Part shown: one piece after another, positions 4,491 to 37,631 of the stretch | Position numbering within the stretch: position 1 is the first letter of the stretch | Layout: the number at the start of each line of letters is the position of its first letter | Assembly: GCF_024346875.1 (NCBI RefSeq) | Contig: NZ_AP024872.1 | Location: 744,001-808,000 of the forward strand | DNA length: 64,000 nucleotides | Direction of reading: 5' to 3' | Source: Vibrio gallicus | GTDB lineage: Bacteria > Pseudomonadota > Gammaproteobacteria > Enterobacterales > Vibrionaceae | Made by a program: the position numbers and the translations under genes | The notes under the pieces: model-generated | Told to the model about the DNA's origin: nothing | What the model saw: only the letters and a program-made list of their open reading frames with translations | Database searches by the model: none

Positions 4491-4492
4491 AT

Positions 4493-7575: not shown

Positions 7576-8130
7576 ATGAAGTGGATTTCAACACTGATCG
7601 CAACCTTAACGCTGACCGCCTGTGTCACGAGCACGCCTGAACATGAAAATAATTTTTCTATCGGTGTGGTTATAAGTGGTGATTTTCAGTTTATTCCGAC
7701 CCATGCAAAAACCTACGCGTGGCATCCAGATTCAGGTAAAACCTATATCAACAAAGATATGAACCAAGATGAACTTAGAAAGGTATTTAACCACGCCATT
7801 GAGAAAACACTTGCTGATAAAGGCTATATTCGAGTGGACATTGCTAATACCCCGCAATTTATTGTGGGTTATGGGCTCGCTATTGAATCACAGCTTTCAG
7901 ATGATGAGCTCTTTGCTAAGACTCAGCTGAGCACTGGTATTCCAGCACAAGACTTTAAGGGAAGTGACGAGAAAGGCACCCTATTTATCGCTTTGTTTGA
8001 TTACCCTATGCTGACCCCAAAATGGAAGGCTCTCGCTCAAAGTGGAGCGGCATCAGGCAAAAGTGGCCAGAAACAGCGAATAGAGGATTATGTGACCACT
8101 GTTTTAAGAGACTTACCAGCGGCGCGCTAA
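7576..8130 (+). CDS. DUF4136-type lipoprotein
   Basis: A 184-residue protein. The signal peptide ends in a lipobox (LTLTAC, Cys at about residue 16), so it is a probable lipoprotein. The following sequence (strand 'FQFIPTHAKTYAWHP', then a helix with an FNHAIEKTLADKGY pattern) fits the DUF4136 domain. The function of that family is unknown. It stands alone between a divergent barrel gene and a convergent ABC exporter, with a shared terminator downstream. Confidence 0.75.
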   Translation: MKWISTLIATLTLTACVTSTPEHENNFSIGVVISGDFQFIPTHAKTYAWHPDSGKTYINKDMNQDELRKVFNHAIEKTLADKGYIRVDIANTPQFIVGYGLAIESQLSDDELFAKTQLSTGIPAQDFKGSDEKGTLFIALFDYPMLTPKWKALAQSGAASGKSGQKQRIEDYVTTVLRDLPAAR

Positions 8131-23255: not shown

Positions 23256-23538
23256 GATTCACTCGTATATCCATTTAATATGCGGGCTAAATTAATAGTT
23301 ATAGTCATCAAATTCAAGTGATTTGATATTATTTACCCCTTTACGATGAACCTTTATGCATAAAAAACCGCATAATTGCAGTATTTATCACTAAGTTTAA
23401 AATTAAATGCAGAATAATAACCCGGCGTATTATCTAAAGCGTTTCACCATATATTGGATTGTTGTAAGGCACTGATATAAGCTTTGCTACAACATAGTAT
23501 TCACTGTCAAAATACGGATATAGGTAATAGATTGTCCA

Positions 23539-23607
23539 ATGCACCGAAGAGAATCCAATCTATTGAGCGCACATTCGCAATTGGAGGAGTCACCTTTAGA
23601 CAACCTT
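23539..23607 (+). pseudogene. 5' fragment of an IclR-family regulator, cut by element insertion
   Basis: ATG at 23539 opens 23 codons (MHRRESNLLSAHSQLEESPL then DNL) and hits TAA at 23608-23610, the first bases of the inserted element. The last codon CTT is in the same phase as CTT at 36829-36831 on the far side. Joining 23539-23607 to 36832-37512 gives an uninterrupted 249-residue protein, the usual IclR length. The exact native start is uncertain because no strong ribosome site precedes the ATG. Confidence 0.7.
23604..23607. other. attL core (CCTT)
   Basis: CCTT is the only sequence shared in phase between the left junction (CAACCTTTAAA) and the right junction (TATCCTTATAC). Large serine recombinases use very short identical cores, so this is consistent. 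The precise crossover dinucleotide cannot be resolved from one copy. Confidence 0.6.
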
Positions 23608-23614
23608 TAAATTA

Positions 23615-24547
23615 TTACTTCAAGCCTTGGGTGAATTTGCTATGCTCATCTCGATAGATAGCCATTAACCCATCTATGTCACAGTCACTAGCGCCATTAC
23701 CTTTCATAGATTTTAGAGTATCTTCTACTTGTTCAGGGCTTCTCAAATCACCATCTTTATAGTTATCTTTACTAAACAAATTAAATGATTCTCTTACCCA
23801 TTGGCTACATAAGCTAGTGCCTTCAATTCTTGCTGAACCACTTTCTTTGTCACTTGCTATGTCTTCTACTTCACTAGAATGATTTTCATAGCTTGAAGCC
23901 TCTAATGATTGTGAAAAAGTAGGGGTGACAATACTCATAGTTATGTTAAGGCCGTCTTGAATATCGGTATTTCGGTCAAAGCTCAGATTAGTGATAATTC
24001 CATAAATATAACCGTTCTCATTTGGAGTATAGGTACTCGCGCTAGCTTGACCGCTTACCGCTGAAATGTCTGGTAAATGCAGGTATACAGGTAATCCCAT
24101 ATTCCAAGCCTCTTTTAGGAGGTCAGCCGTGACACTCACGTTATGAGTACTCATTCTAGCCGTATTTGACACTTTAGCGGTGAGTTGGTATTCAACGTTA
24201 CTCTTTTTGAAACCATCAGCGACAGTGTCACCATTAAACATTCTATGCTCAGTTAAAGAGCCTGAGTATTGTACTTGGTAGCCTGTAACGGTATCAAATT
24301 CTACACGTGTTTCTACTAGGTTTTTGAGTACCTCTTCTTCAATTTCAAAGTAATTATCTACCCATGCGAGATGACCATTTACTAGCTCTTCATCGGTTTG
24401 CTTACTGTCTTGCTTCTGAGGCTTGTTGCCGTACTTACCGACAGATTTAATTACTAGGTATGGATTCTTATCTGACAAATTCATCTTGTCGTATAGCAAC
24501 GTTGTAACTAGCTTTTGAGCTAGCATCTTGCCAAGGTTATCATTCAT
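23615..24547 (-). CDS. Unknown protein paired with the tape-measure gene; possible tail/baseplate protein
   Basis: A 310-residue protein encoded 5 bases after the tape-measure gene and ending next to attL. Residues about 30-210 are beta-rich (VEFDTVTGYQVQYSGSLTEH..., then VTADLLKEAWNMGLPVYLHL). The C-terminal quarter is helical and acidic. Position after a tape measure is where distal-tail or baseplate-hub proteins are often encoded, so a tail role is plausible. I do not recognise a specific family. It is the last gene of the left operon. Confidence 0.6.
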   Translation of the reverse strand: MNDNLGKMLAQKLVTTLLYDKMNLSDKNPYLVIKSVGKYGNKPQKQDSKQTDEELVNGHLAWVDNYFEIEEEVLKNLVETRVEFDTVTGYQVQYSGSLTEHRMFNGDTVADGFKKSNVEYQLTAKVSNTARMSTHNVSVTADLLKEAWNMGLPVYLHLPDISAVSGQASASTYTPNENGYIYGIITNLSFDRNTDIQDGLNITMSIVTPTFSQSLEASSYENHSSEVEDIASDKESGSARIEGTSLCSQWVRESFNLFSKDNYKDGDLRSPEQVEDTLKSMKGNGASDCDIDGLMAIYRDEHSKFTQGLK

Positions 24548-24552
24548 AATGT

Positions 24553-26007
24553 TTATTCCTCGTCTAATTCTGTAAAACCATTTTCGTGTATTATAAGCGT
24601 AGGGTTGAAATCAATGTTGTATCTGCCTGAATCTTTTGCGGCAAATGGTGCGGGTTGGAATATGCTATTGTTTGCAGAAGGGTTAGTTTGATGCAGTTTC
24701 GTATGTTCCCGCTCAGGTAACTCACTGATTAAATCAATTGCTGTCAGCAATCCACCCAATACAGGCAACGCTCTGACACCTAGCTTTACCGTACCTTTAC
24801 TTATAGCTTTTCCCACTCCCTTGGTAGGAGTCTTACCACCTGAAGAAGGCTTGCCACCTTTACCTACTCCTAGCATCTCACGAAGAGCTTTTACTGTAGA
24901 TAGCACTTTCATTGCTGTTAAATGCCCAAGGATTACCCCGAAAATCTTCTCAGTAATCGATAATTGCTCATTGAAATCTTTTACTCCGTCACCGTCAAAA
25001 AAGCCCCAACCCATAAGCAAAGCCTTGAACTCGATTATCTTCAAAGTTATCTCTGTGATACCGTCGCTCATGGTGGTTACTACAGCATAGAAAATGCGGC
25101 CTATAGTGTTGAAAACGGGGGCTAACTGTTGAGCTAAACCTCCAACACTAGCGATGAGCTTGTTAGTTCCTTCAATGAAGCCCTGAAACATTTCATCGCC
25201 ACCTGCGCCCATAAATTGGCCGCTTTCTTCAGTGATTGTATTCTTTAGCTTGCCTAGAGATACTCGACTATTATCAAAAGCGTCTGACATATTGCCGTTA
25301 GCTTTAGCAACTCGTTCAAAGAATTTAGGTAAGGCACTAGCAGAAATTAGCTCACCTTTCTCTAACATAGTGTTAAGCTGTTGTGTTGTAACTCCCAACC
25401 CCTCTGCAAAGAGCTTGGTTGCGCCTGACATTCTTTCGCCTAACTGACCACGTAATTCTTCTGCTGAGATTTTGCCTTTCGATAACATCTGTGTAATGGC
25501 ACGGGTTACCCCTTTAATATCGTCTTGGGTCGCGCCCATAGCAGAAGAGCGTCTTACGACAGCGCCATAGCCCATTTGCATTTGCTCTTCACTCATACCG
25601 CCTGCATCAGGGTTAGAGGCTACAAAGTTAGCGTAGTCTTTACCAAGCGAGGCAAGGTTAGCCCCTGTTTGGTTTGCTAGGTCACGGGTAAATGCCAACC
25701 TCGAATTTAGTTGTGCTGTGGAATCTGACACCATCGCCATAGATTTCTGCATGGCTAAATAGTTGTTGCCTTCATTGAAGACAGTACTCGCTGTCTGAGC
25801 GATAGCAGTTAAGGCTATACTTACTTTTAGAGCACTCTTTGCCATGTTAGAGAAAGAGCTGTTTACACCTTTCTCCATACCTTTTACGTGACGTTCAACT
25901 TTATCAGCGTCTCTCGGCACATCCTTATTTACAAATTTATTCCACGAATCAGCGTCTATGCCAATTCCTATGGTTACACCATTTTGAATGTAATTATCTG
26001 TACTCAT
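24553..26007 (-). CDS. Phage tail tape-measure protein
   Basis: A 484-residue protein. Residues about 60-260 match the tape-measure domain of tailed phages. Key segments are 'LGKDYANFVASNPDAGGMS', 'GKISAEELRGQLGERMSGA' and 'LGVTTQQLNTMLEKGEL'. Hydrophobic segments near residues 290-340 and 365-390 and a Gly/Lys-rich linker follow. Tape-measure proteins set tail length and help DNA injection. Here no major tail, capsid or terminase gene accompanies it, which is unusual. It is short for a tape measure and intact. Confidence 0.85.
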   Translation of the reverse strand: MSTDNYIQNGVTIGIGIDADSWNKFVNKDVPRDADKVERHVKGMEKGVNSSFSNMAKSALKVSIALTAIAQTASTVFNEGNNYLAMQKSMAMVSDSTAQLNSRLAFTRDLANQTGANLASLGKDYANFVASNPDAGGMSEEQMQMGYGAVVRRSSAMGATQDDIKGVTRAITQMLSKGKISAEELRGQLGERMSGATKLFAEGLGVTTQQLNTMLEKGELISASALPKFFERVAKANGNMSDAFDNSRVSLGKLKNTITEESGQFMGAGGDEMFQGFIEGTNKLIASVGGLAQQLAPVFNTIGRIFYAVVTTMSDGITEITLKIIEFKALLMGWGFFDGDGVKDFNEQLSITEKIFGVILGHLTAMKVLSTVKALREMLGVGKGGKPSSGGKTPTKGVGKAISKGTVKLGVRALPVLGGLLTAIDLISELPEREHTKLHQTNPSANNSIFQPAPFAAKDSGRYNIDFNPTLIIHENGFTELDEE

Positions 26008-26017
26008 AACTTACCCC

Positions 26018-26389
26018 TTATAGAAATCTGTATTCTGGCTTAGATATAAAACGTTCTTGGTAGCACTTCTGAAAAGTACCTTGCATAAGTAAGCATGTGA
26101 TTGTGTCGTGCTCGAATAACTTCTCTAATACTATCCAAAACTTTTGAGCACAGAGTGCTAGCTCTTCGTCTAAGCTTTCTGGTTGAATAAGCATCTGGCA
26201 GAAACGCTCTAGTAATACTTCTTGGTGGCCTTCTGGTAATTCAATAACCAATTCTGTAAACAATCCAAATAGGAAAGCGTCTTTAGGGGTAGCCATAATC
26301 TCTAAGAATTGCTTTGTGGTTTCATGGTTAGCTTTTAATAGAGCTGTAATTTCTTCTGTTTTTTGTTTTGCTAATACTTCGTTAATCAT
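26018..26389 (-). CDS. Small helical protein upstream of the tape measure
   Basis: A 123-residue, mostly helical acidic protein (residues 1-30 predicted helix, then 'FLFGLFTELVIELPEGHQEVLLERF'). It lies 10 bases before the tape-measure gene and 5 bases after a 48-residue ORF. In tailed phages two small proteins, often frameshift-linked tail-assembly chaperones, precede the tape measure. This and the 48-residue ORF occupy that position, but I see no sequence match, so the role is a guess. Confidence 0.55.
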   Translation of the reverse strand: MINEVLAKQKTEEITALLKANHETTKQFLEIMATPKDAFLFGLFTELVIELPEGHQEVLLERFCQMLIQPESLDEELALCAQKFWIVLEKLFEHDTITCLLMQGTFQKCYQERFISKPEYRFL

Positions 26390-26393
26390 ATTC

Positions 26394-26540
26394 TTATAAT
26401 CCTTGTAATTCTTCTTCTACGTCATTTCGTAGATTCATTAATACGAATGCTTCAGATAAACGCTTCATTGTTAAAGCGTCACTGATAGCGTTTTCTAATT
26501 CTTGTAATTTATTTTCTAGCTTCTGCTTCTGGTTCATCAT
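26394..26540 (-). CDS. 48-residue coiled-coil protein, unknown
   Basis: ATG at 26540 overlaps the upstream gene's stop (ATGA). The product is a single amphipathic helix rich in Glu, Leu and Lys (KLENKLQELENAISDALTMK). Tight coupling on both sides supports a real gene. No family is recognised. Confidence 0.55.
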   Translation of the reverse strand: MMNQKQKLENKLQELENAISDALTMKRLSEAFVLMNLRNDVEEELQGL

Positions 26541-26902
26541 TTATTACCATCTAGTACTTGTTGGTATTTGTGTGCCATTCCTAGCATTTTCTTTAAATAC
26601 TTATCGCTATATTGGTGCGACACTGCATTGTGTAGTAACTTATCAACCGCGTCATTCACAGTAAGCGATAATCCTTCGTCTTTAATACGTTGCTTTATAA
26701 TATTTATCACTGTATTGGTGAGAATGATATCTTCAGATTTACCGTTAATTTTTGGTGAAGCCTGTTTACCTAAAATCTTAGTAGGCTTGTTTAGCAATGC
26801 GTCTATAATAATCGTCTCGATGTATGACTTAATTCTTATTGGTCTTTTATCTAAGTCAGTATAATGAGCTAGAGCTTCATAGCTCTGTAAATTAATCTTC
26901 AT
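26537..26902 (-). CDS. 121-residue element protein, unknown
   Basis: The frame is open from 26941, but ATG at 26902 (MKINLQSYEALAHYTDLDKR) is chosen because it overlaps the previous gene's end and a GAGGC sits upstream. Lys-rich, helical C-terminal half ('DAVDKLLHNAVSHQYSDKYL'). It is possibly a small DNA-binding or assembly protein. No domain is recognised. Confidence 0.5.
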   Translation of the reverse strand: MKINLQSYEALAHYTDLDKRPIRIKSYIETIIIDALLNKPTKILGKQASPKINGKSEDIILTNTVINIIKQRIKDEGLSLTVNDAVDKLLHNAVSHQYSDKYLKKMLGMAHKYQQVLDGNK

Positions 26903-27128
26903 TCGTAAAGCCTCTACCGCCCATAATAAGGCTCTCAACATGCACAGGGGCTGTGTTATACTGGATACCCAGCTTTTCTAAGAATAACTTCACAGGGGCG
27001 AAATTGTTTGTTCTCCTGTAGAGTTGATACCAGCGTAATAAATTTTCACGTTCGGATTGTGTAATAGTTGCTTTTGTATAAGGGATATTAAATTCTTTTA
27101 GCGGGGTAGTTAAATCGTAATGAGTCAT
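26892..27128 (-). CDS. 78-residue element protein, unknown
   Basis: First gene of the left operon, after a terminator at 27162-27191. The sequence 'ITQSERENLLRWYQLYRRTNNFAPVKLFLEK' is helical and basic. It is coupled by overlap to the following gene. No family is recognised. Confidence 0.5.
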   Translation of the reverse strand: MTHYDLTTPLKEFNIPYTKATITQSERENLLRWYQLYRRTNNFAPVKLFLEKLGIQYNTAPVHVESLIMGGRGFTNED

Positions 27129-27161
27129 TTTTTTGTCTCCTATTTTTGTTTTTCAGATAAT

Positions 27162-27191
27162 AAAAAAAGGCCACCCCCTAGAGAGATGACC
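27162..27191 (-). terminator. Terminator separating two element operons
   Basis: On the minus strand GGTCATCT pairs with GGGTGGCC (several G-T wobbles) and is followed by seven T's. It falls between the gene ending at 27211 and the one starting at 27128, so the tail-like operon probably has its own promoter. Confidence 0.7.
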
Positions 27192-27210
27192 AATTTAGAA
27201 GGGGGATAAA

Positions 27211-27558
27211 TTATTTTAATCTTTCTTGGAAAGCTTTTTTTCTAGCTTCTGTAGAGGCTTTAGATTTCTGCATACGCTCTTTCAGCGTGGTAGCTTTTTT
27301 CTCTTCTTCTAGCTCGATATCTTCATAACCGTTTACCGCGTTTATGTCTCTAAGCATTTGTTCGAAATCAGCAACACCATCTTTAATTTCAGCTTTAGAT
27401 TTTTCAATAGAATCTTGTGAAGCCTTGATAGAAAGCTTTGAAGCTTTGATATTGTTAATACCTTTTAAAAGCTGAGCTAAATTGTCACCTTCAACCTTTT
27501 GCTTAGGTTGCAGATATAAGCCTACATCTGATTTATTAATGTTTGTAATGTAAGCCAT
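27211..27558 (-). CDS. Coiled-coil protein, unknown
   Basis: A 115-residue protein starting at MAYITNINKSDVGLYLQPKQ; the longer reading to 27588 has no advantage. Residues about 35-115 are a charged heptad-like coiled coil ('SIKASQDSIEKSKAEIKDGV'). It starts one base after the 55-residue RHH-like gene ends. It could be a scaffold or structural partner. No family match is recognised. Confidence 0.5.
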   Translation of the reverse strand: MAYITNINKSDVGLYLQPKQKVEGDNLAQLLKGINNIKASKLSIKASQDSIEKSKAEIKDGVADFEQMLRDINAVNGYEDIELEEEKKATTLKERMQKSKASTEARKKAFQERLK

Positions 27559-27559
27559 A

Positions 27560-27727
27560 TTATTGCACCGCTTGTTTAACGATAGCACTTAGAAGACGTG
27601 GTAGAGCTACACCTTCAGCTTTAGCGACAGCTTCTAGCTTTTCTAAATCACTACGTTCAACCGTCACATGCTTGCTTACAGTTGGAGATTTTGCAGATTT
27701 AACAGCTTTTAATAGAGATTGATTCAT
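27560..27727 (-). CDS. 55-residue ribbon-helix-helix-like protein
   Basis: ATG at 27727 overlaps the upstream gene's TGA (ATGA). The segment 'VSKHVTVERSDLEKLEAVAK' followed by 'GVALPRLLSAIVKQAV' has the strand-helix-helix pattern of Arc/CopG-type DNA-binding proteins. It could be a small repressor of the element. The call rests on pattern only. Confidence 0.55.
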   Translation of the reverse strand: MNQSLLKAVKSAKSPTVSKHVTVERSDLEKLEAVAKAEGVALPRLLSAIVKQAVQ

Positions 27728-28074
27728 AATTGATTTTCCTTGTGTTGATATCCCAACTCACTGAGCGTATTAAGCCAGTTGTCAGGTAAAAATGAGTAGT
27801 TAATGCAGTGTCCATTATCAAAGTATGGAATCACCTTTACGTATACGAAGCCTGAAAAGTTAGCTTTATCAGCAAATACTATTTTATTTACTTTCTCTTC
27901 TAGAGTTAATTCAGTAGAAAGCTCTATCTCTTCTTCTGGCTCTTCAAATGATTCACCTAGAAATAAAAGCTCTTTAGTACTTATGCCTAGCTTTTTAGCT
28001 TTAGCTTGAAATGCTTTCTTTTCTTCTGAAGTCATCCTTACAGATAATACAGTCGAGGTATTCGAATCAGTCAT
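27724..28074 (-). CDS. Protein with N-terminal ribbon-helix-helix-like segment
   Basis: A 116-residue protein. Residues about 8-42 ('VLSVRMTSEEKKAFQAKAKK' then 'LGISTKELLFLG') resemble an RHH DNA-binding unit. An acidic linker and a beta-rich C-terminal part (FSGFVYVKVIPYFDNG) follow. It overlaps both neighbours, so it belongs to the 28342-27211 operon. The role is unknown, perhaps regulatory. Confidence 0.5.
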   Translation of the reverse strand: MTDSNTSTVLSVRMTSEEKKAFQAKAKKLGISTKELLFLGESFEEPEEEIELSTELTLEEKVNKIVFADKANFSGFVYVKVIPYFDNGHCINYSFLPDNWLNTLSELGYQHKENQL

Positions 28075-28342
28075 AACAATGAGCCGTTAATACTGTGAAG
28101 ATATTCAGAGTATGCTCTCTAGAATACTTTTTCATATTCTTAAGCATCTTAATAAAGCGTTCACGCTCTTCTAGGTCAGATTCATATTCAAAATGGTCTA
28201 TACAAATAGCCGCCATAACTTCTAAGATTTGAGCGTACTCCACTAAATCTGATTCTGTCAGGTATTCGTTATTCTTTAGTGACTCTTTCCAACCGCTGTA
28301 TTTATCTTTCACAGGGCTGAATAATTTATTTTCGTAATCCAT
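28067..28342 (-). CDS. 91-residue acidic protein, unknown
   Basis: First gene of the operon running 28342 to 27211. The product is acidic and helical (LVEYAQILEVMAAICIDHFE). A gene-free leader of about 540 bases with a promoter-like signal at 28890-28918 lies upstream. The last 8 bases overlap the next gene. No family is recognised. Confidence 0.5.
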   Translation of the reverse strand: MDYENKLFSPVKDKYSGWKESLKNNEYLTESDLVEYAQILEVMAAICIDHFEYESDLEERERFIKMLKNMKKYSREHTLNIFTVLTAHCYD

Positions 28343-28965
28343 AGGGTTACCCTCTCGGTTGGTAGTAGAAATAAGAAAAAGCTTATCTAGTTAACAGAAG
28401 AGGTAAGAAATCTGCTAGATAAACTTTGTATTATTTCAACTTAAATAAAGGAATAAGTAACGCTTCTAAAATAGTAAAGTAAGAACAATAAGGAGATGAA
28501 AAAACCTTTTACTAATAACTGGCGTTGTTAGGTAACTAACCTAGTTTTTTTATTGCTAACCATTGGAGTGGTATATATTCAACTTAAATGTATTACCCTT
28601 AAAACTTAAAGACTACTAAACCGATAAGATAAACAGGGTAATATTGAAATAACATATGATAAGTAAGTTATTCCGTTTATTTTTGAAGCCTTATGACTAA
28701 TAATGCTTAATGATAGAGACTAGGATGAGATAATCTCTATAAATTAAGTACTATCAAAGATATATATTGAGCTAGATTTGTAGAAGTACCTTCCAAGGAA
28801 TTTCCACTACCATTTTTAATAAATGATGCGGTGCAATACCGCTGTAGTATGTGAAAGAAGCTTTTTTACTTTCTTCTCCCACTATTAGTATTGTACCATA
28901 CTGTTACGGACTTGTAAAGCCCTGAATACAATTATTTTACATTTCTTTAACATTTATGCAACATT
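28343..28965. other. Gene-free stretch with a minus-strand promoter
   Basis: No coding frame is supported in these ~620 bases. On the minus strand TTTACA (28918-28913), 17 bases, then TACAAT (28895-28890) form a good sigma-70 promoter. A transcript from there would have a leader of about 540 nt before the gene at 28342. A small hairpin GCGGT...ACCGC lies near 28830. It could hold a regulatory leader or small RNA (inference). Confidence 0.55.
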
Positions 28966-29256
28966 TTAATTGTTGCTGTATTTTTGTAGCGTCTTCTTAG
29001 TATTTTCAGTGATATTCTTTACGAAAGTGAAGTCCTTCATGAATTGTTCTTTGCTGATTTCCCGTCCTGCTACTGTTACCGTATCTGTGTCAATCTTCTC
29101 TAGCTTAACCTTACTCATGAACGCATAAGATTCAGGTACAATGCAGGTATAGTTTTTACGTTTATCGAATTTAAAGTGTCTCTGAAATTTTATGGATTGT
29201 ATTTTCTCTCTACTTGTTACTGCTTTTCGATGTTGCTTAGGGGTATGTAAATTCAT
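28966..29256 (-). CDS. 96-residue basic protein, unknown
   Basis: Preceded by AGGAG about 9 bases upstream. The N-terminus is strongly basic (HTPKQHRKAVTSREKIQSIK) and the rest is Lys-rich with a beta core ('VTVAGREISKEQFMKDF'). It could bind nucleic acid. It stands alone, upstream of a gene-free stretch. Confidence 0.5.
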   Translation of the reverse strand: MNLHTPKQHRKAVTSREKIQSIKFQRHFKFDKRKNYTCIVPESYAFMSKVKLEKIDTDTVTVAGREISKEQFMKDFTFVKNITENTKKTLQKYSNN

Positions 29257-29445
29257 TTAATTATCTCCTGTTTGTAGGGGTTATGTAGCGTTTCACTTAT
29301 TGATGATGATATTCGGGGCTATTGTGCGCCCCTCAGGGGGTATAGGAGGCTCTATAACCGTGCTGTGAGCCGTCTTAGGGGTTAACTTGATAGATTGCTA
29401 AGGGTGACGCTGTAGGGGGCTAATTTAGGGGGTATTACTGAGCAT

Positions 29446-29619
29446 CTAATACATTGCGTAATCAGATTGTTTGTAGCCTATTAAAGCCTTTTGAGCTGTA
29501 GCGTAATCTTTCTTCTTCTGAGCCTTAAGCTTCTTAACTAAAGGTTTGTATTTTTCAATCATATCTTTTGTTGGCTTACAGGTTAGCTCTCCTAGTTTAT
29601 GTTTTTGTTGGTAGTTCAA
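29446..29619 (-). CDS. 57-residue Lys-rich protein with TTG start
   Basis: TTG at 29619 lies 6 bases after AGGAG (29630-29626). The same AGGAGAAGAATTT...TTGAA arrangement precedes the next gene upstream (TTG at 29890), which supports both starts. The product is very basic ('YKPLVKKLKAQKKKDYATAQ'). No family is recognised. Confidence 0.5.
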   Translation of the reverse strand: MNYQQKHKLGELTCKPTKDMIEKYKPLVKKLKAQKKKDYATAQKALIGYKQSDYAMY

Positions 29620-29635
29620 ATTCTTCTCCTTCTGT

Positions 29636-29890
29636 TTAGATTTCTGGTTGTAGGTTTAAGGTAATGAGTAGGTCTTTGTTTGGTTTAACTCCCATTCGCT
29701 TAGGTGTGTCTTCTGCAAGCATGTAATGCCCATTCACTGACAGCTCATCTTTACGTAAGAACTCTCTTAACGCCTGTAGAGGGTGAGGTAAATCTAGTTT
29801 GCGTATGTAGTCGAACGGGTATAAACCTTTCTTCTCTTCACCCGTAGGGCTTGTGGCTGTGTATCGTTTAAGGCTATTTGAAATATTCAA
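29636..29890 (-). CDS. 84-residue protein, unknown, TTG start
   Basis: TTG start with a near-ideal AGGAG site. The product begins NISNSLKRYTATSPTGEEKK and ends 'NKDLLITLNLQPEI'. It lies between the RepA_N-like gene and the 57-residue gene, possibly in the same transcript. No recognised domain. Confidence 0.45.
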   Translation of the reverse strand: MNISNSLKRYTATSPTGEEKKGLYPFDYIRKLDLPHPLQALREFLRKDELSVNGHYMLAEDTPKRMGVKPNKDLLITLNLQPEI

Positions 29891-29962
29891 AAATTCTTCT
29901 CCTATAGTTAGTAGTTAGGTAAGTAGATATCTGTTAGACAACCTACAGTTAAATAAAAAGGG

Positions 29963-30337
29963 TTATTCCCAATCGTAAGAGGTCTCAGCTACAAGAATGT
30001 TACTATCGTTGTACTCTCTCACTTTAGATACTAAAGGCATAACATAAAGGAGTTGGTTCTTTGTTGTACCTTCTAGACGAACTAGATTGCGCTTCTCCAG
30101 CGTTTTAATAGAATTGCTGATAGTCTTAAGGGAAATGCCTAGAAGCTTCTCCATGTCTCTCTGAGAGACTCTAACAGGGGTAGCTATCCTCTTATCTAGG
30201 TTGCCGTTTAAATTCTGGAAAGCTTGTTCTTTAGAAGCTTCAGACGCTAGGTATTGATATAGAAACTTGGTTGCAAAACTTAAGCCGTCTAAATGCTCGT
30301 GTGTTAGTAATGCAGTATTGAATTGAAATGTACTCAT
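29963..30337 (-). CDS. Winged-helix protein resembling the RepA_N replication-initiator domain
   Basis: A 124-residue protein. The layout follows RepA_N: a start 'FQFNTALL', then 'LDGLSFATKFLYQYLASEAS', a loop, then the HTH 'VSQRDMEKLLGISLKTISNS' and 'IKTLEKRNLVRLEG', ending in a wing strand (LLYVMPL). It borders the 2.2-kb gene-free region and has its own promoter there. A replication initiator or origin-binding regulator is the best guess. It lacks the long C-terminal part of plasmid RepA proteins. The family match is by eye. Confidence 0.55.
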   Translation of the reverse strand: MSTFQFNTALLTHEHLDGLSFATKFLYQYLASEASKEQAFQNLNGNLDKRIATPVRVSQRDMEKLLGISLKTISNSIKTLEKRNLVRLEGTTKNQLLYVMPLVSKVREYNDSNILVAETSYDWE

Positions 30338-30382
30338 GATTTGTAATCCTTAAAGTTAGTTTGAGTTATCACCATGTATACT

Positions 30383-30411
30383 ATTGTACACTTTTCTAAC
30401 ATCCACGTCAA
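30383..30411 (-). promoter_or_regulatory. Sigma-70 promoter of the RepA_N-like gene with overlapping dyad
   Basis: On the minus strand TTGACG (30411-30406), 17-base spacer, TACAAT (30388-30383), about 50 bases before the start. The -10 lies inside GTGTACAATAGTATAC, a dyad-like pair of GTRTAC half-sites that could be an operator. Confidence 0.7.
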
Positions 30412-30599
30412 GCTTTTTGTTGTACTTTTTACTACAATAAAGAAATAATTACTACAATAACCAAAGGAGTTACACTAAGAACCAAGCCCAAACGACACGA
30501 AATAACTACAAAGTAAGCTATTTTTAGCTAGAAAGTAGTGCTATAAGTAATTGAAATAGAAGGGAAATAAAATTAAATATTAAATAAATGAAAATAAAT

Positions 30600-30628
30600 T
30601 TGACAGATACTGAAAAAGACGTTATACT
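30600..30628 (+). promoter_or_regulatory. Near-consensus sigma-70 promoter firing into gene-free DNA
   Basis: TTGACA (30600-30605), a 17-base spacer and TATACT (30623-30628). It is the best promoter seen in the element and points away from every gene, into the 2.15-kb gene-free region. A transcript would start near 30635. Confidence 0.8.
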
Positions 30629-32150
30629 AAGAGCTATCGACCCCACTCTAGAGGCTATAGGAAAAGTAACTATGTCGGTCTCTGGTTTATCCCTCCTCTC
30701 TCCATTCGTAAACCTATAACGATATCCATACAGCTAACCTAGGTAGCTACATGATACCTACAACCATACAGTACCCACACAAACACATAAGAGAATCTAA
30801 CTACCTCACCTACTGTATAGCTGTCTATGTAGTTCTATCTGTATGGGGGGATGATTCTCATCTGGTTACCCCCTACTAGGGTTACAGCTTTATCTATGAA
30901 TCTATACGGGGTAGGTACATTAGGTAGGTATACTGTGTAGCTGTTACATAGATGATAAAGCATAACCTCATAGAAGAGAGAAGCATAACCATATCAACTA
31001 AATGACTACCTGTAACAGGGGACTATAGAGATAGAAGTATTATGCCCCACTAGATAGTGAGAACTGTATAGGCTCTATAGCACTACTATAAAGATAGATA
31101 TCCCTCTACAGCTATACTAGTCATCTATCTAGCTAGCTATAACCAAGTAAGTGAATAGAAGGTAATCCACATAAACATATTCATTATAGATAACTCTATC
31201 TATCTATACAGTATCTATCCATCTATACAGTATCTATCTATACCCACCCCTATAGTTATAGAAGAGTATGCCCCATTGTATAACAATCTATACAACATCT
31301 TTAACCCTCCTCTATAGAAGCCTCTGTAAGCCCTTCTATACCGTAAGCCTACCTAATACTCCACTTACCACCTAACACCTCTAATAACCCCCTCTATACT
31401 CCTTGTATACCCCCTCCCGCTATACAGTTAAACCGTTGTAGTAGCTGTGTAGTGTAGCTGTGTAGAAATACTGTATAGATATCTGGCTGTATAAGTAAGT
31501 ACTGTATAGATTCTTACTTGTATACTTCTCTGTATACGCCTAGGTGCTAAACACTCCCCTACAGCCCCACATCTAAATCTACATAAAAATGAAATACAGA
31601 TACCTATTTAGAACTCTCCTAATATGGCTATGTAGTAATCTATGTAACATTTCTGTAACAGTGTCTGTGTAGTTGGTGTAGTAGTTATAACCCCTTAGAG
31701 TATGCCCACTATAGTAGGGGTAAAGGTTACTATGCAGATATCACTTAGACAACTATGGGGATAACTAAGTAGATAAGAACATAAGTAATTATAAAGGTAG
31801 CTGTATCAATGACTTAGCCTGTGGATAACTAAGTAGGGTAACTGCATAGGTTGGTTGTGGGGGTTGGTTGTAGGTGGGTATAGTAGGTTGGCTGTATCGT
31901 TTTATGTTTTATTGGTATGTGTAGTAAGCTGTTTAGGTTTTCTAAAAAGGTAAATGTTACAGGTATGTTAACTAAAAAGATATCAAGGAGTTATCAAGGG
32001 GCTTTGTAACATTTTGTATACATTTTATAACAATTGAGGTGACAGGGTTACACTGTAGACCGCTAGGTCAAAGTTAGCCCTGTTTGTGCGGTCGATTATC
32101 TTATATCAAGATGAGCACACTAGCAATACCAAGTAAATGTATTGTGATAG

Positions 32151-32258
32151 AGCTACAGATAGCTACCTGAGACGCTGTAGGAGGGCTGTTGCAGGGTATA
32201 GCGGTACATTGCCCTACCTAATGGTGCTATCGTTTAATCTAGGTAGGCTGTGAGAGCT
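32151..32258. repeat. Direct repeat, copy 1 (~108 bp)
   Basis: Shares long identical blocks with 32270-32375: GATAGCTACCTG, ACGCTGTAGGAGGGCTGTTG and the block from GTGCTATCG through AGGCTGTGAGAGCT. In this copy CCTACCTA (32213-32220) and TAGGTAGG (32240-32247) form a perfect inverted repeat around the conserved GTGCTATCGTTTAA. Confidence 0.9.
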
Positions 32259-32269
32259 TCTAGGGATAA

Positions 32270-32375
32270 AGCTATAGATAGCTACCTGTGACGCTGTAGG
32301 AGGGCTGTTGCGCTTTACTGGTACATTGCCTTGCCTAATAGTGCTATCGTTTAATCTAGGTAGGCTGTGAGAGCT
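32270..32375. repeat. Direct repeat, copy 2 (~106 bp)
   Basis: Second copy of the 32151-32258 unit, 119 bases away, differing by a few substitutions and a 2-base loss in the middle. The left inverted arm is degraded here (TTGCCTAA), while the GTGCTATCGTTTAA core and right arm are kept. Confidence 0.9.
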
Positions 32376-32565
32376 AATAGGGGTAGTTATCGACTCCCAT
32401 TGATAAGAGAGAACAATCACAAAGTAGCTCATCTGTGTATTATGGGTACAGTAAGCCCACAGAGTGCTATAGCACTACGTGAGACGTGTTTAATCTGATA
32501 GGGGTACAATTGGGTTAAGCTATGACGGTAAGCGTCACAGGGACGCTCTGAAGAGGTGCTAGGCT

Positions 32566-33495
32566 TTATTTCCTCCTCTTTTTATTAATTAAATCTCTAG
32601 CCGTGTTGATAGCTATCATATTAGTGTTGTTACCATTAAATTTATCAGGGTGATATCTTACCGCATAACTTTTGTATATCTTTTGAAACGCTTTTAGTGT
32701 TATCTGCCCTGATAATGCTTCCTCTTTTGTTATACCAAATAGATGGAAAGCTTCTAGAAGAGTAGTAGGTTTCTTTAAGTCAGGTAGATATTCTTTCTTA
32801 GTGCCAGTGAAAGCTTTCTCTAAGATATCAAAGTAAGTGTTAACTTTTAGCATTAAAATATCATCTCCTTTATTTTTATCAGGGTGGTACTTTATAGCTA
32901 ACTTCTTCTTACGTTTGCATACTTCTTTCCATGTGATAGTTGCCTCCTCTTCTTCTGTGATTGAGAAGAAATTTAAAGCCTCCTGTACTTCACATAAATC
33001 TTCTTCTGGCTCTTCAATTTTCGTATTCTCTTTACGATTAAATCTAAAGGTTAAGTTTTGAAAACGGTCGAACATTTCACTAGTGGTATACTTTTTCGCT
33101 TCTTCATCAAGCCTAGCTCGTTCTTCGTTTAACTTCTTCTGAGTCTCAGCTTGGGATTTCTTCAGCTTCTCTAGCAATTCTTCGAAGGTTGGCTCTGGTT
33201 CTGGCTCAATCGTTGGCTCTTCTTCTGGCTCAATCGTTGGCTCTTCAGCTTTACCGAACACCTCAGTAAACAGTGCCTTAATAATTCTCCATCGTTTACG
33301 GCTATTGTCGAATGCTTCTTTATTGCTTGGGTAATCAATGCTAGCCATCTCACCGTTGATAGTGAAGGTAATGTGCTTGCTAGCTTTATCGTAATCGACT
33401 GTGATTGCGTAAACGCTTTTGTTTGTTACTTTGTTGTACTGTTTGATTGCTGTCAGTAGGTAATCTTGGCGGGTTGGTCGCTTGGCTTTAGGCAT
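32566..33495 (-). CDS. Twin J-domain (DnaJ-like) protein
   Basis: A 309-residue protein. Residues about 170-230 and 245-305 are two J-domains, each with the HPD tripeptide (KKLAIKYHPDKNKG and KSYAVRYHPDKFNG) and the flanking helices. Upstream lie a novel N-terminal domain (1-85), an acidic run with repeated EEPTIEPE, and a coiled coil (about 115-150). J-domains stimulate DnaK/Hsp70. The Gly/Phe and zinc-finger parts of true DnaJ are missing. Encoded by a satellite-like element, it may recruit host DnaK for replication or particle assembly (inference). Confidence 0.82.
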   Translation of the reverse strand: MPKAKRPTRQDYLLTAIKQYNKVTNKSVYAITVDYDKASKHITFTINGEMASIDYPSNKEAFDNSRKRWRIIKALFTEVFGKAEEPTIEPEEEPTIEPEPEPTFEELLEKLKKSQAETQKKLNEERARLDEEAKKYTTSEMFDRFQNLTFRFNRKENTKIEEPEEDLCEVQEALNFFSITEEEEATITWKEVCKRKKKLAIKYHPDKNKGDDILMLKVNTYFDILEKAFTGTKKEYLPDLKKPTTLLEAFHLFGITKEEALSGQITLKAFQKIYKSYAVRYHPDKFNGNNTNMIAINTARDLINKKRRK

Positions 33496-33574
33496 TTCAT
33501 TATCTCCTCATTGTTGTTGTTGGTACACCTCCTCGGTGCGTAATTTTGGGTTAGCCTCTTGGCTTGTGTTGGGT

Positions 33575-33603
33575 ATTATGTAGGAATCACTTAGACAAGT
33601 CAA
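33575..33603 (-). promoter_or_regulatory. Promoter of the twin J-domain gene
   Basis: On the minus strand TTGACT (33603-33598), 17-base spacer, CATAAT (33580-33575), about 80 bases before the start. GAGGAG then precedes the ATG. Confidence 0.65.
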
Positions 33604-33646
33604 GATAAAAGTGTTGCATCAAGGGATGTAATGGGGTAGCACATAC

Positions 33647-33672
33647 AAAAAAACCCCACTATCAAGTGAGGA
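33647..33672 (-). terminator. Terminator after the 93-residue gene
   Basis: On the minus strand CCTCACT pairs with AGTGGGG (one wobble) around TGAT and is followed by seven T's. Confidence 0.8.
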
Positions 33673-33726
33673 TATGCAGAAAGGTTAATCCTTTATTCTA
33701 CTAATGTGATACCCAGCTCTAAAGGC

Positions 33727-34008
33727 TCAGTAAGAAAGTTGCTCGTAAGCTTCTTTAACCATATCCTTAATGGTATGCTCGTAGAAATCTGAAATGATAA
33801 ACACGGCACTATTATCGCAATAACCTAAATCAAAATAAGCTTTATTTTCTTCATGGCAAACAGATAAAGAATTAATGTGTAGCTTAGTGTCCGTCTTAAA
33901 TATAACGGTCTCTGTGATGTACCATAGTAAATCAGAAAGTGAATCTGTCTTAATAGTAATGCTCATCTCGCCTAGGTCGGTTACATTTTTGTTCAGTGTA
34001 GTATTCAT
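33727..34008 (-). CDS. 93-residue acidic protein, unknown
   Basis: AGGAG precedes the ATG. The product is acidic with alternating strands and helices (MSITIKTDSLSDLLWYITET and ENKAYFDLGYCDNSAVFIIS). It has terminators on both sides, so it is probably its own transcript. Small acidic phage proteins are often inhibitors or DNA mimics, but nothing specific is visible. Confidence 0.55.
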   Translation of the reverse strand: MNTTLNKNVTDLGEMSITIKTDSLSDLLWYITETVIFKTDTKLHINSLSVCHEENKAYFDLGYCDNSAVFIISDFYEHTIKDMVKEAYEQLSY

Positions 34009-34145
34009 AATTATTTTCTCCTGTGTTATTAATAAAGTTTGTATCGTTTGTCGATGTAGCTATAGTACGTATTAACCTGTAACAGTGCCAATGACTCATA
34101 TCTATACCTGTTATGTCTGAAGCGTATAACACTATGTAGTAGGTA

Positions 34146-34170
34146 TAAAAAAGCCCCCTATGAAGGAGGC
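34146..34170 (-). terminator. Terminator of the integrase gene
   Basis: On the minus strand GCCTCC pairs with GGGGGC (one wobble) around a 6-base loop, followed by six T's, just after the integrase stop. Confidence 0.8.
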
Positions 34171-34183
34171 TAGACAGCATTGG

Positions 34184-35767
34184 TTAATCATTTATGAAAT
34201 CGTCTATTACAGGCTCATCCACCCTGTTAACTTCTTCGTACAGCTCACTCATTGAACCACCATCCATTGATAGCTTGCTTATCACTTCGCCATTCTTGAA
34301 ATAAATGCTGTAGGTGCGCTTTGTAGAGTTAATAACAACCTTGGTAAGTACTGACAGTAATTTATTATTAACGTCCTCTCTTGCCTTGGCTGTATTCAGT
34401 GCCATTCCTTCAAGGTTGGTGAGAGTGTTATCACTGGCTAGCTTTGCCTTATAATTAAGGGCTGTAAGCCTCTCTACCACGTTATCGAGTTGTTCCTGCT
34501 TAGTTGCTACATTACTCAGCATCTGCCCTTGTAGGTTGCTTGGTAGCTTTCCTAGAGCGTCTAAGCTGTTTTGTATCTCTTCTTCAATGGATGTCCTCAA
34601 TAAGTGAAGCTGTTGTAAATCATCTTCATCTATGCCCGTATCGCTAAATTTAACGTGCGCTATTGAGCGTAGTAGCACGTCTGTGAATTCAAACATCCTG
34701 AAGGTAGGCTCACTGCAACGGTTACTATCTAGTACTCGTACAGTACAAAGTCCACGTACATGCCCTTTACCTGCCACTGATTTAACACTGATAGCTTTTC
34801 CACAGTTAGAGCATATCGCTAATCCACGTAGAGGATTGTTGAATTGTTTAGTACGTCCACCTTTGATTACTCGCTTACTAGATATCTTTTGCAGTAGCTC
34901 AAAAGTGTCTTTATCGGTTAAAGGTGGAAAGAAATTCTCAACCTCAGTAAACGGCCTGCTGTAGTGTCCTACTGGTAAACCTTGGGCTTGTCTTATTTCC
35001 TTCTCTTGAAGGGTAAACGGCCTTGTCATCTTGTAAGAGCCGTACATAGAAATGTTAGTAAAAAATATCCTAACATTAGCAGTATCAAAAGTAGCAATAC
35101 TTGGTGGTGTCTCTGTGAATTCTTCTCGTATGGTGTCAGTGATGGTGTTTTGCCCCATACCTTGTAGACGTAAAGCAATAATACGTCTAGCTATATCTGC
35201 ATAACGGTTAAGTACGTATTTATCACCTTGCACATCAATCCACCAAGGTAAATAACGGCTCTGTATCATCTCTTCACCGTTAACTATGGCCTGCTTCTTC
35301 TTCTTAAAAGTGGAGGTTATACGCTCACTCTTCTGCTTAGATTCATCATTACTCAATTTAAGAGCAATCATCAGTTGGATATCTGCACCGAAATCGTACT
35401 CGCCTTTGTTCGAGAATGTAGCGTTTAACTTAACTATGTGAATGTCTACATGCTCTAAAATCTCTCCTATTACCTTACGAGCTTGTCTAGGGTCTAACCG
35501 ACTTAATCGGTCAGTTTCAGCAATAACTAGTACTGTCCCTTCTGGATAATGGCTTTTCTTAAGATTAGATATCAACTCACCTAACTCACCGTCAAGGTGT
35601 GTACCCTTAAAGGCACTTTGCCCTAGGTCGTTATAGTGGTCGATTATTTCCCAACCGTGTTTAGTGCAAGCCTCTTGTATTAGCGCATCTTGTCGCCTCT
35701 CACTATCACCCATAGATTGACGCTTTGTAGAGAATCGTATGTAACTTATTGCCTTGGTATTACTCAT
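34184..35767 (-). CDS. Large serine recombinase (integrase)
   Basis: A 527-residue protein from ATG at 35767. A GGAG lies upstream, and an in-frame codon at 35818 would add 17 atypical residues. The resolvase domain (1-150) holds the catalytic Ser in 'SYIRFSTKRQSMGDSERRQ' and Arg in 'AETDRLSRLDPRQARKV'. The recombinase domain (about 165-270), zinc ribbon (CSNCG...C) and a coiled coil follow. It is expected to integrate and excise the element at a short core, consistent with the CCTT junctions. Excision needs a separate directionality factor, not identified here. Confidence 0.93.
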   Translation of the reverse strand: MSNTKAISYIRFSTKRQSMGDSERRQDALIQEACTKHGWEIIDHYNDLGQSAFKGTHLDGELGELISNLKKSHYPEGTVLVIAETDRLSRLDPRQARKVIGEILEHVDIHIVKLNATFSNKGEYDFGADIQLMIALKLSNDESKQKSERITSTFKKKKQAIVNGEEMIQSRYLPWWIDVQGDKYVLNRYADIARRIIALRLQGMGQNTITDTIREEFTETPPSIATFDTANVRIFFTNISMYGSYKMTRPFTLQEKEIRQAQGLPVGHYSRPFTEVENFFPPLTDKDTFELLQKISSKRVIKGGRTKQFNNPLRGLAICSNCGKAISVKSVAGKGHVRGLCTVRVLDSNRCSEPTFRMFEFTDVLLRSIAHVKFSDTGIDEDDLQQLHLLRTSIEEEIQNSLDALGKLPSNLQGQMLSNVATKQEQLDNVVERLTALNYKAKLASDNTLTNLEGMALNTAKAREDVNNKLLSVLTKVVINSTKRTYSIYFKNGEVISKLSMDGGSMSELYEEVNRVDEPVIDDFIND

Positions 35768-35904
35768 AATAAAAAACTCCGAAATAGACTTATCTATCAC
35801 GGAGTATTGAATATTCATCTATGGAGGTCAACCTTAAACAACCATCACCAACTAGAAATAGTTTGTTGTACGAAACGTAAACGAGTCGGCCACACGGAGT
35901 ACTT

Positions 35905-36285
35905 TTAGGCTTGAGGCTCGATACCTTGATAGTGTTTTCTGTAGAACTTCTCTTTAGCTGAGAGAGATGTATACCGTCTAGCACTAGCTTCTATATCAGC
36001 GTCTTGAGGTAGAGGTGAAGGGTTGCCGTATACGTCTGTACGATTGTTGTTGAAGTTGATATTAAAATCTCTTTCCCATACTGCGCTACCATCTTCTACC
36101 TTTGCTTCAATGATAATTTGTAGCTCTTCTGGTAAGGTTGGTAGCTCAGTAAGGTTGTAAGTGGTATACATGTAATTGAAGCCGTTCACTTTACCGTAAA
36201 GCATATCGTAATCTGTACCTAGCTTGTAATCGTGCCAGCGTTGTTTACGTGCTAGTACTGGCTTAAAATCTTGGTTATATCTCAT
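35905..36285 (-). CDS. 126-residue protein, unknown
   Basis: Third of three coupled genes between the integrase and attR, overlapping the previous gene by four bases. Tyr- and Asn-rich start ('KLGTDYDMLYGKVNGFNYMY'). The C-terminal 'YTSLSAKEKFYRKHYQGI' is basic. No domain is recognised. Its position next to the integrase makes an excision or regulatory role conceivable. Confidence 0.5.
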   Translation of the reverse strand: MRYNQDFKPVLARKQRWHDYKLGTDYDMLYGKVNGFNYMYTTYNLTELPTLPEELQIIIEAKVEDGSAVWERDFNINFNNNRTDVYGNPSPLPQDADIEASARRYTSLSAKEKFYRKHYQGIEPQA

Positions 36286-36662
36286 AGAAAAAATCTCTCT
36301 ACCTGCTTGAGAGTCATCTTAGTAAATGCTTCTCGTTGTCTAGGGCTAACATTCCAAGCTTTCAGGATTTGTGTCTCTGCATAATCTAGCGTCATCCCTT
36401 GCCATAGCTTGTAAGATAGTGACGGCTCTAATAACTCTACATCAAGGAATACGTTGTTAGATATATCGTAAACGCTCATAGAAGGGGTTAAACGTTGCTC
36501 TGCTAGGCGCTGTAGCTCTATCGTCATAGCGCTTACATAGTTAGGGTTATTGCTTGCTACGTTAATACTGATAGTGTCATGAGAGGGGTGAAAGTTGCTA
36601 GGTTGTATAACTCTGAAATTGAATGTACCCATTGTAGTTGTAAAGGAGTGGGGGCTACTCAT
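36282..36662 (-). CDS. 126-residue protein, unknown
   Basis: Overlaps both neighbours (8 bases upstream, 4 downstream). Mixed alpha/beta, with 'AMTIELQRLAEQRLTPSMSV' and a C-terminal 'NVSPRQREAFTKMTLKQVER' that looks like a helix-turn-helix-sized unit. No family is recognised. Confidence 0.5.
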   Translation of the reverse strand: MSSPHSFTTTMGTFNFRVIQPSNFHPSHDTISINVASNNPNYVSAMTIELQRLAEQRLTPSMSVYDISNNVFLDVELLEPSLSYKLWQGMTLDYAETQILKAWNVSPRQREAFTKMTLKQVERFFL

Positions 36663-36816
36663 CTAAAAATCTCCTCACTGTATTGTAATCTTTACCAATA
36701 AATACGCTTAATGCTACTTGTTTGATGCCTACGCTTTCTAGAAAGTGAAGCTCTTCAGTAGTGATAACACTACCCTTTGTAATAAGCTTGCTAGCTAATT
36801 CATCTTTATTAATCAT
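36655..36816 (-). CDS. 53-residue HTH-like protein at the right end
   Basis: ATG at 36816 follows AAGGA (about 36827-36831 on the minus strand). The longer reading to 36846 would start in host DNA. The sequence 'LESVGIKQVALSVFIGKDYN' plus TVRRFLDE has a helix-turn-helix look, so it could be a small regulator or recombination directionality factor. Its ribosome site lies at the attR junction. Excision would therefore change the DNA immediately upstream of it. Confidence 0.5.
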   Translation of the reverse strand: MINKDELASKLITKGSVITTEELHFLESVGIKQVALSVFIGKDYNTVRRFLDE

Positions 36817-36827
36817 TGTTTGTTTAT

Positions 36828-36831
36828 CCTT
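36828..36831. other. attR core (CCTT)
   Basis: Right-hand copy of the CCTT shared with the left junction. The reconstructed empty site has CACCTT at 23591-23596 and AAGGTG at 36847-36852, an imperfect dyad of about 38 bp around the junction as expected for a serine-integrase attB. Confidence 0.6.
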
Positions 36832-37512
36832 ATACTTGGTCGGCATAAGGTGATACCCACAATACTAGAAATACTGTCTCGCAGTAACCTGCCCCTATCA
36901 CTGCACAGTATTAGTTGTGCTGTTGAATTAAACAAAACCACAGTGCATGGTTTATTAGCGACCTTACATGCATTGGGTTACGTCACAAAAGAGCAGCACG
37001 GATACAGCCTAGGATTGAGATTTCGTGAACTATCTAAACCGCTAGAGCAGAAAGATGAAAAGATCCGTCAACAATTCAATCCATTACTCCAAAAAATGGC
37101 TCAATTAAGTAACAATACCGCGTACTTAGCCGTGCAAAGTGGTATTCAAGAATACTTATATATCGACGCTATCGAGCAATCCAACCCGCTGACTATCCAT
37201 AGCCCTCGTGGAAACAGAGAAGGACTCACAACCTCAGCCATAGGTAAGGTTTTCTTAGCCCTTAATGACGATTTAAAGCGCACCCTTCGCCGCTTAGATA
37301 AAATGCCTGATTCACTAGAAAATGAACTTAAAATCGTCAAACAACAGGGTTTCGCCCTCGATCTTGAGCGAGCAGAGCGGGGATTAAATTGCCTAGCTAT
37401 CCCTTTGTATGCTGATGGAAAATTAGCCGCAGTTGCTGGAATAAGTGGTTCCGCAACACAACTGACTCCAGCCAAATTACGTCATTTTGCCCAGCTATTC
37501 CTACGTAGCTGA
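36832..37512 (+). pseudogene. 3' part of the split IclR-family regulator
   Basis: 226 codons follow the right junction, and the frame is open from TTG at 36820 inside the element. The fragment retains the winged HTH ('LHSISCAVELNKTTVHGLLA', then TLHALGYV) and the whole IclR ligand domain (IDAIEQSNPLTIHSPRGNRE ... GLNCLAIPLYADGKLAAVAG). It lacks the native first 23 residues and promoter. If translated from TTG 36820 it could still make a nearly complete protein with 4 element-derived codons, but no ribosome site is evident. It is divergent from the M42 peptidase and just upstream of an SDR gene. Confidence 0.75.
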
Positions 37513-37631
37513 CAATAGAATATTCGACATTATCGAATGCTAAGGAGTTATTTAGGTGATCTCTTTATATCTACAAGCAATCAGATAAGCTCAGTCTCAA
37601 TATTAAATACACAAATTTATGTGAGGTATAC

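Follow-up and report, generated by a model that had tools for sequence, protein, structure and literature searches.

What kind of mobile element carries phage tail genes of its own? The question is raised by a 13,282-bp insertion on the minus strand of Vibrio gallicus DNA, at 23578..36859 of a 64,000-nucleotide stretch (hereafter the window) that is part of contig 2 of the two-contig 3.52-Mb genome. Our answer, which we hold with fair confidence, is that the insertion is an integrated satellite that works on a contractile phage in the manner of the PLE satellites of Vibrio cholerae, building a shorter, chimeric tail. The support is a pair of adjacent tail genes, of the kinds that PLE11 uses, in an element for which no gene of head, packaging, tube, sheath or lysis function was recognised. 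We class the element as a divergent satellite candidate and not as a PLE, since the test for a RepA_N initiator was negative and no tail assembly chaperone (TAC) is recognisable. The cycle would begin when a contractile-tailed phage infects and the large serine recombinase (LSR) excises the element at the attachment sites described below. A winged-helix protein would then fire a repeat-bearing gene-free region as origin, using helper machinery, and the element DNA would be packaged in helper capsids. The short tape-measure protein (TMP) and the Dit/BhuB-type tail-tip protein, both recognised by homology, would yield chimeric, shorter tails, as in PLE11. As helper, the tail-gene pair would indicate a phage whose tail module resembles those of Felix O1, rV5 and ICP1.

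The boundaries of the element are precise. The original prediction, which placed the ends at 23608 and 36831 (30 and 28 bp short), was right that they are sharp, and its clean insertion of 20 genes on one strand is borne out by 20 minus-strand open reading frames (ORFs), the reconstructed attachment sites and the restored frame of a host regulator. A 4-bp CAAT core bounds the element, with its second copy at 36860-36863, and splits a gene for an IclR-family regulator, whose first codons lie in the left flank and the remainder in the right flank (Pfam PF01614, IclR_C, 3.7e-20; PF09339, 1.8e-7). Joining the flanks at the shared CAAT (23,578 / 36,860) gives a single open frame, ...RIQSIERTFAI/LEILSRS..., that is ...APKRIQSIERTFAILEILSRSNLPLSLHSIS..., so that the regulator would be restored upon excision. 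A DNA search for the empty site in 40 relatives gave no match. It was replaced by a protein search of 99 sampled genomes of the genus: eight, including that of the host, have a homologue of the regulator (E<=1e-20), and in all seven others it is unbroken at the insertion point. When the element ends are joined, the reconstructed attP reads AAGGTGATACCCACAATTGGAGGAGTCACCTT, in which AAGGTGA...TCACCTT flank the core as an imperfect inverted repeat, as expected for the attP of a serine integrase.

All 20 ORFs are open, and together they occupy 9.6 kb. Their products were scanned against Pfam and PHROGs, ten of them also against NCBIfam and ten against PADLOC. Profile identities are clear for four proteins, namely, the LSR and the TMP, both already named in the original prediction, a Dit-like protein and a double J-domain protein (Table 1). 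Matches are suggestive only for a 124-aa winged-helix protein and a NikA-like ribbon-helix-helix protein, and the other fourteen have no function-telling match. Among the 20 proteins, no family with a role in head, packaging, sheath, tube or lysis is recognised at E<=0.001 (Pfam and PHROGs; ten also NCBIfam), in agreement with the earlier statement that no capsid, portal, terminase or lysis gene was recognised. In none of the 20 does a family of the PHROG head-and-packaging category score below E 0.29, and no such Pfam family is listed. Some weaker matches carry virion or lysis labels: phrog_1768 'endolysin' (1,577 positions) on the TMP (E 0.0028, aligned to TMP residues 141-328), phrog_1517 'endolysin' on the Dit-like protein (0.057), phrog_4297 'spanin' (0.12) and the NCBIfam DarA 'phage head protein' (0.023) on the J-domain protein, and phrog_37994 'virion structural protein' (0.29) on the 126-aa ORF at 36,282.

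The kind of helper was approached by comparing the tail genes of the contractile phages CR9, SUSP2, ICP1 and Vibrio phages 1.121.O and F93. In all of them a sheath is annotated, a chaperone is identified (by annotation or, in 1.121.O, by PF21822), and the TMP adjoins a protein that matches PF21821; the order ORF-TMP-Dit of the element is the order in all five. In two control phages of the Casjensviridae (59 kb), TMP scores are similar, the TMPs exceed 1,400 aa, and the next proteins are of 941 and 562 aa. The TMP by itself, as judged from such matches, does not single out contractile phages. The pair of TMP and Dit-like protein, however, points to them, because the PF21821 neighbour is found in five of five contractile phages and in neither of the Casjensviridae. 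The Dit-like protein shares both PF21821 and phrog_817 with gp78 of ICP1 (PF21821 1.2e-17, phrog_817 2.1e-11, phrog_1517 3.4e-66), and it matches a local profile made from the five phages at 3.6e-6 (search among the 20 proteins). gp78 is described as the baseplate hub BhuB, which PLE11 replaces (PMC12987554). In ICP1 (4449-5063) and F93 (7344-7961) the TMP neighbour is labelled 'endolysin' (phrog_1517), yet matches PF21821; to judge from that match, the label is probably a propagated misannotation.

The TMP of the element matches a profile of four contractile-phage TMPs, which leaves out the split TMP of ICP1, at 2e-44 over profile positions 257-573 of 757 (search among the 20 proteins), and the two exon ORFs of the ICP1 TMP align weakly to it (1e-6 and 0.001). 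At 484 aa, as against 655-811 aa in the four aligned phage TMPs, it is 171-327 aa shorter, and pairwise alignments place most of the shortening at the N-terminus, where 140-246 residues are missing. With about 0.15 nm of tail length per TMP residue, the tails would be shortened by up to about 50 nm. In PLE11, a TMP differing by 95 aa is reported to go with tails 10 nm shorter, and deletion of tmp to cut transduction by ~99.9% (PMC12987554). On that calibration the tails of the element would be roughly 20-35 nm shorter. The quantitative prediction is thus of tails roughly 20-50 nm shorter than those of the helper. The genome of the host has no second TMP_3 gene beyond that of the element, TMP_3 being the one TMP family sought, so that a phage from outside is the probable helper.

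The 123-aa ORF directly upstream of the TMP gene is a candidate TAC by its position, but searches lent the label no support: it matches neither the five-phage TAC profile nor a PLE1 ORF19 fragment nor PDB sequences, and hhalign gave no match. Foldseek with its all-helical model also found no match, a negative that is uninformative because the model is weak (pLDDT 52.5).

Replication of the element would start in the gene-free region between the winged-helix gene and the J-domain gene. Such a region, of 2.15 kb and beside a RepA_N-like protein, had been part of the original prediction. It is present, with a length of 2,228 bp and no plausible ORF: its longest, of 72 aa, compares with a simulated mean of 62 (5-95%: 45-95). 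The motif CTATACAG occurs in it seven times over both strands (30813, 31064, 31204, 31223, 31420, 31471, 31502), five times followed by TA, as against 0.36 expected and a maximum of three in 2000 first-order Markov simulations. Since the motif was chosen with the counts in view, a fairer measure is how often the most frequent 8-mer, whichever it was, reached seven, which happened in 4 of 500 simulations. Two copies are 19 bp apart (31,204 / 31,223), with others facing them. The region also contains a 117-bp tandem duplication at 32146-32382.

Beside this region, a 124-aa winged-helix protein is indeed encoded, whereas its predicted RepA_N identity found no support. Profiles of DnaD-like helicase loaders match it at 5e-5 to 1e-4 (phrog_186, 5.4e-5) and those of replication initiation proteins near 0.002 (phrog_270, 0.0017), next to a family of unknown function (phrog_22534, 3.1e-6); matches to MarR_2, HTH_36 and RepL stay below the Pfam cut-off. 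RepA_N itself (PF06970) gave no match at E<=1 in Pfam. Alignment by hhalign with Odn and the N-terminal domain of PLE1 RepA (4ro3) returned a probability of 0.1%, and their PHROG matches do not overlap; the identity of 4ro3 is taken from its match to ICP1 Odn (42% identity) and from papers. The PLE RepA domain, like the protein of the element, is of the winged-helix kind and resembles DnaD. The N-termini of DnaD and RepA_N proteins are described as structurally alike (PMC7145576), and on that account a deep relation between the winged-helix protein and RepA is conceivable. Its structure model is poor (pLDDT 38.9), and a PDB sequence search returned only an AsnC-type regulator at 0.62.

On the other side of the gene-free region, the J-domain protein has HPD in both J-domains (residues 204 and 282), which places a J-domain co-chaperone beside a presumed satellite origin. 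A precedent is the remodelling of initiators by DnaJ and DnaK in lambda phage and in plasmid P1. The protein may equally well act in particle assembly as at the origin. In the papers searched we found no co-chaperone recruitment by a phage satellite, and we know of no PLE counterpart of this protein. An acidic E/P-rich repeat, with 24-bp units at 33188-33246, precedes the J-domains.

How close is the element to known satellites? The comparison with PLEs draws on published descriptions, the N-terminal domain of PLE1 RepA, the PLE1 ORF19 fragment and ICP1 proteins. PLEs, whose helper is ICP1, are presented as the first satellite family known with chimeric tails: all V. cholerae PLEs are reported to encode tmp and tac, some a baseplate hub, and PLE11 to incorporate its own TMP and BhuB into virions (PMC12987554, Nature 2026). 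The PLE origin is described as lying in non-coding DNA, with semi-palindromic iterons to which RepA binds (PMC7145576, PMC8263062). The element resembles PLEs in its LSR and precise attachment sites, in a long non-coding region with iteron-like repeats (its function predicted from sequence), in a winged-helix candidate initiator, and in having its own TMP and no recognised head gene; it resembles PLE11 in its Dit/BhuB-family tail-tip protein, by the family shared with gp78 of the helper. It differs in an initiator of 124 aa that by sequence is not of the RepA_N type to which PLE RepA belongs, in lacking a recognisable TAC, and in its insertion in an IclR-family gene.

A tail gene of its own, which had been put forward as what sets the element apart from PLEs, is therefore already described in kind, since PLEs carry tmp and tac and make chimeric tails (PMC12987554); moreover, the TMP gene, correctly predicted, is one of two tail genes, the second being that of the Dit-like protein. 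What is new is this element, with its strongly shortened TMP, its double J-domain protein and no recognisable RepA_N or TAC. If this is a divergent satellite that itself supplies a TMP and a Dit-like protein, redirection of tail assembly would look like a general satellite strategy. Putative PLE-like satellites in other Vibrio species (source LeGault et al. 2022) are shown with predicted tmp genes, and so is a sample of cf-PICIs with putative ones (PMC12987554, Extended Data Fig. 10a and 10b, respectively). A relationship between the element and one of these PLE-like elements is conceivable. Unlike cf-PICIs, which have their own capsid and packaging genes and make their own capsid, it has no recognised capsid gene. 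PICMI are described as small Vibrionaceae satellites of virulent phages, with reduced gene content, that integrate next to fis and use AlpA (PMC10803314). The element shares the Vibrionaceae host with them, but its site is the IclR-family gene, and no AlpA match is listed for its 20 proteins (Pfam).

Relatives were sought in genomes, in two contig collections (viral_contigs and genome_contigs, scanned with exact peptide words that reach close relatives only), and among phage and plasmid records. Match limits in the genome searches were 1e-6 for the TMP, 1e-3 for the winged-helix protein and 1e-4 for the Dit-like protein. Among 227 genomes of the genus the TMP matched only its own, and it has no relative in either contig collection. 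In the order, besides its own genome, it matched 9 of 393 others, where the matches lie at 20-38% identity in open frames, 851-1200 aa long, that presumably belong to prophages; distant homology extends to 1,183 phage records, all below 60% identity and none covering 80%. The Dit-like protein matched only its own among 369 genomes of the class and has no relative in viral_contigs or phages, and the winged-helix protein only its own among 329 genomes of the family, with none in viral_contigs or plasmids. Viral_contigs and phages yielded no related element through the J-domain protein, nor did viral_contigs hold a relative of the 123-aa ORF or of one 126-aa ORF. The whole element found no related element among phages and plasmids. 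Used as bait for a PLE-like RepA, Odn found nothing in the 227 genomes; the PLE1 RepA domain found nothing in the contig collections, one weak plasmid match (E 0.003) and 201 phage records, of which the best were ICP1 isolates (42%). No PLE was among the matches of the two baits in genomes, contigs, plasmids and phages.

The LSR has no close relative in viral_contigs; distant ones occur in 15 plasmid and 18 phage records. Relatives with 24-33% identity are present in 51 of the 227 genomes of the genus, own included, and such distantly related LSRs are thus not rare there. Around related recombinases, 41 stretches (40 sites in the genus and one gut phage scaffold; up to ~10 kb on each side, with 8 of the 41 below 19 kb) were searched with the other 19 proteins, and no relative was found by tblastn (E<=0.1). 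By phmmer there was one weak match (E 0.013), to the 126-aa ORF at 35,905-36,285, and local profiles of TMP, Dit and TAC found none at E<=0.01. MT836130.1, an unannotated 'phage' scaffold of 12,681 bp from human faeces, has a related LSR near one end and is maybe a satellite-sized element. The same block at other insertion sites was not seen in the related genomes searched, and by these searches the element is an orphan within the collections. The prediction of a new or divergent satellite family agrees with the absence of any related element from the matches, its relation to PLEs being judged from the materials named above in place of whole PLE genomes.

Several results weigh against a PLE-like satellite. 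Excision, replication, packaging and helper are all predictions from sequence. The candidate initiator matches neither RepA_N nor the N-terminal domain of PLE1 RepA nor Odn, and at 124 aa it is too short to hold the C-terminal domain of PLE RepA. In profile, sequence and fold searches, the last with a weak model, the ORF upstream of the TMP gene matches no TAC. The TMP also has matches in ~59-kb phages whose tail modules are of other kinds and in two phages of 38-40 kb, so that the type of helper rests mainly on the Dit-like gene. Finally, with no related element in the collections searched, recurrence as a mobile unit is unproven.

The same observations may be read as those of a separate, non-PLE lineage that arrived at an 'own ruler' strategy independently. 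Its strongly shortened TMP and matching tail-tip protein would make short chimeric contractile tails, while a DnaD-like initiator and a DnaK-recruiting double J-domain protein, flanking the origin, would start replication. We regard this as a tentative, somewhat doubtful alternative. That the element is instead the remnant of a larger prophage, which kept its integrase and a few tail and replication genes and lost its head, packaging and lysis modules, is unlikely. Genes for TMP and Dit-like proteins are normally found in complete phages, and the long open frames matched in nine other genomes of the order presumably belong to prophages. However, the two attachment half-sites are undamaged and in register, and none of the 20 ORFs is interrupted, for which reasons the original prediction was right to favour a self-contained, PLE-style element over a prophage fragment. 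A complete prophage would differ in its capsid, portal, terminase and lysis genes, and local profiles at E<=0.01 detect no TMP, Dit or TAC within the 41 recombinase stretches, which reach at most about 10 kb to each side. It is quite unlikely that the element is a satellite or defence island whose TMP and Dit-like protein are decoys that poison tail assembly of the helper: the TMP is indeed shortened relative to phage versions, and defence systems are known to act on phage tail assembly (Rta, PMC12987554), but PLE11, the closest studied parallel, is reported to build its TMP and BhuB into virions (PMC12987554). A self-moving or conjugative integrative (IME-like) element with passenger tail genes, mobilised by the NikA-like protein (PF21983, 9.7e-6, just under the family cut-off; NCBIfam MobA, 0.002, far below cut-off), is very improbable, as no relaxase, type IV secretion system or coupling protein is recognised among the 20 proteins (Pfam, PHROGs; ten also NCBIfam) and ribbon-helix-helix proteins are common regulators.

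Table 1. Features of the element in window coordinates.
Feature	Position	Strand	Basis
Left attachment site	23568..23594		core CAAT 23578-23581; att reconstruction
Dit-like baseplate/tail-tip protein, 310 aa	23615..24547	-	PF21821 5.5e-8, phrog_817 4.5e-6
Short TMP, 484 aa	24553..26007	-	PF20155 9.2e-21, phrog_2335 1.9e-40
123-aa ORF directly upstream of TMP, tail-chaperone position	26018..26389	-	position only
Seven small ORFs (48, 134, 78, 125, 55, 116, 91 aa), two ribbon-helix-helix-like	26394..28342	-	
Three small ORFs (96, 57, 84 aa)	28966..29890	-	no function-telling match (Pfam, PHROGs)
124-aa winged-helix protein, presumed replication initiator	29963..30337	-	DnaD/RepL/MarR-like profiles
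Gene-free region, presumed origin, 2,228 bp	30338..32565		
Double J-domain protein, 309 aa	32566..33495	-	PF00226 3.4e-8, 2 stretches
93-aa ORF	33727..34008	-	no function-telling match (Pfam, PHROGs)
LSR, 544 aa	34184..35818	-	PF00239 7.6e-15, PF07508 1.2e-5, phrog_95 integrase 1.3e-49
Three small ORFs (126, 126, 63 aa)	35905..36846	-	no function-telling match (Pfam, PHROGs)
Right attachment site	36849..36876		core CAAT 36860-36863; att reconstruction

A Shine-Dalgarno-like tetramer lies within 18 bases of the chosen start in 14 of the 20 ORFs, and three start with GTG or TTG. The two ribbon-helix-helix-like proteins are those of 116 aa, the NikA-like one, and of 55 aa (RHH_5, 0.021); the 134-aa ORF matches phrog_3364, of unknown function, at 7.9e-4. 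A second gene-free gap, of 623 bp at 28343-28965, is a possible site of a regulatory RNA or a promoter, with no Rfam match in it; Rfam gave two matches below gathering score, which were taken as chance. The 91-aa ORF (28067-28342) has a weak AbiN match (PADLOC PDLC02349, E 0.0021), the sole PADLOC match among the ten proteins scanned. In the surrounding host DNA (22035-38321), the interrupted regulator lies between genes for an M42-type peptidase and a short-chain dehydrogenase (Pfam), and the GC content of the element is 38.1%, as against 43.9% in the rest of the window.

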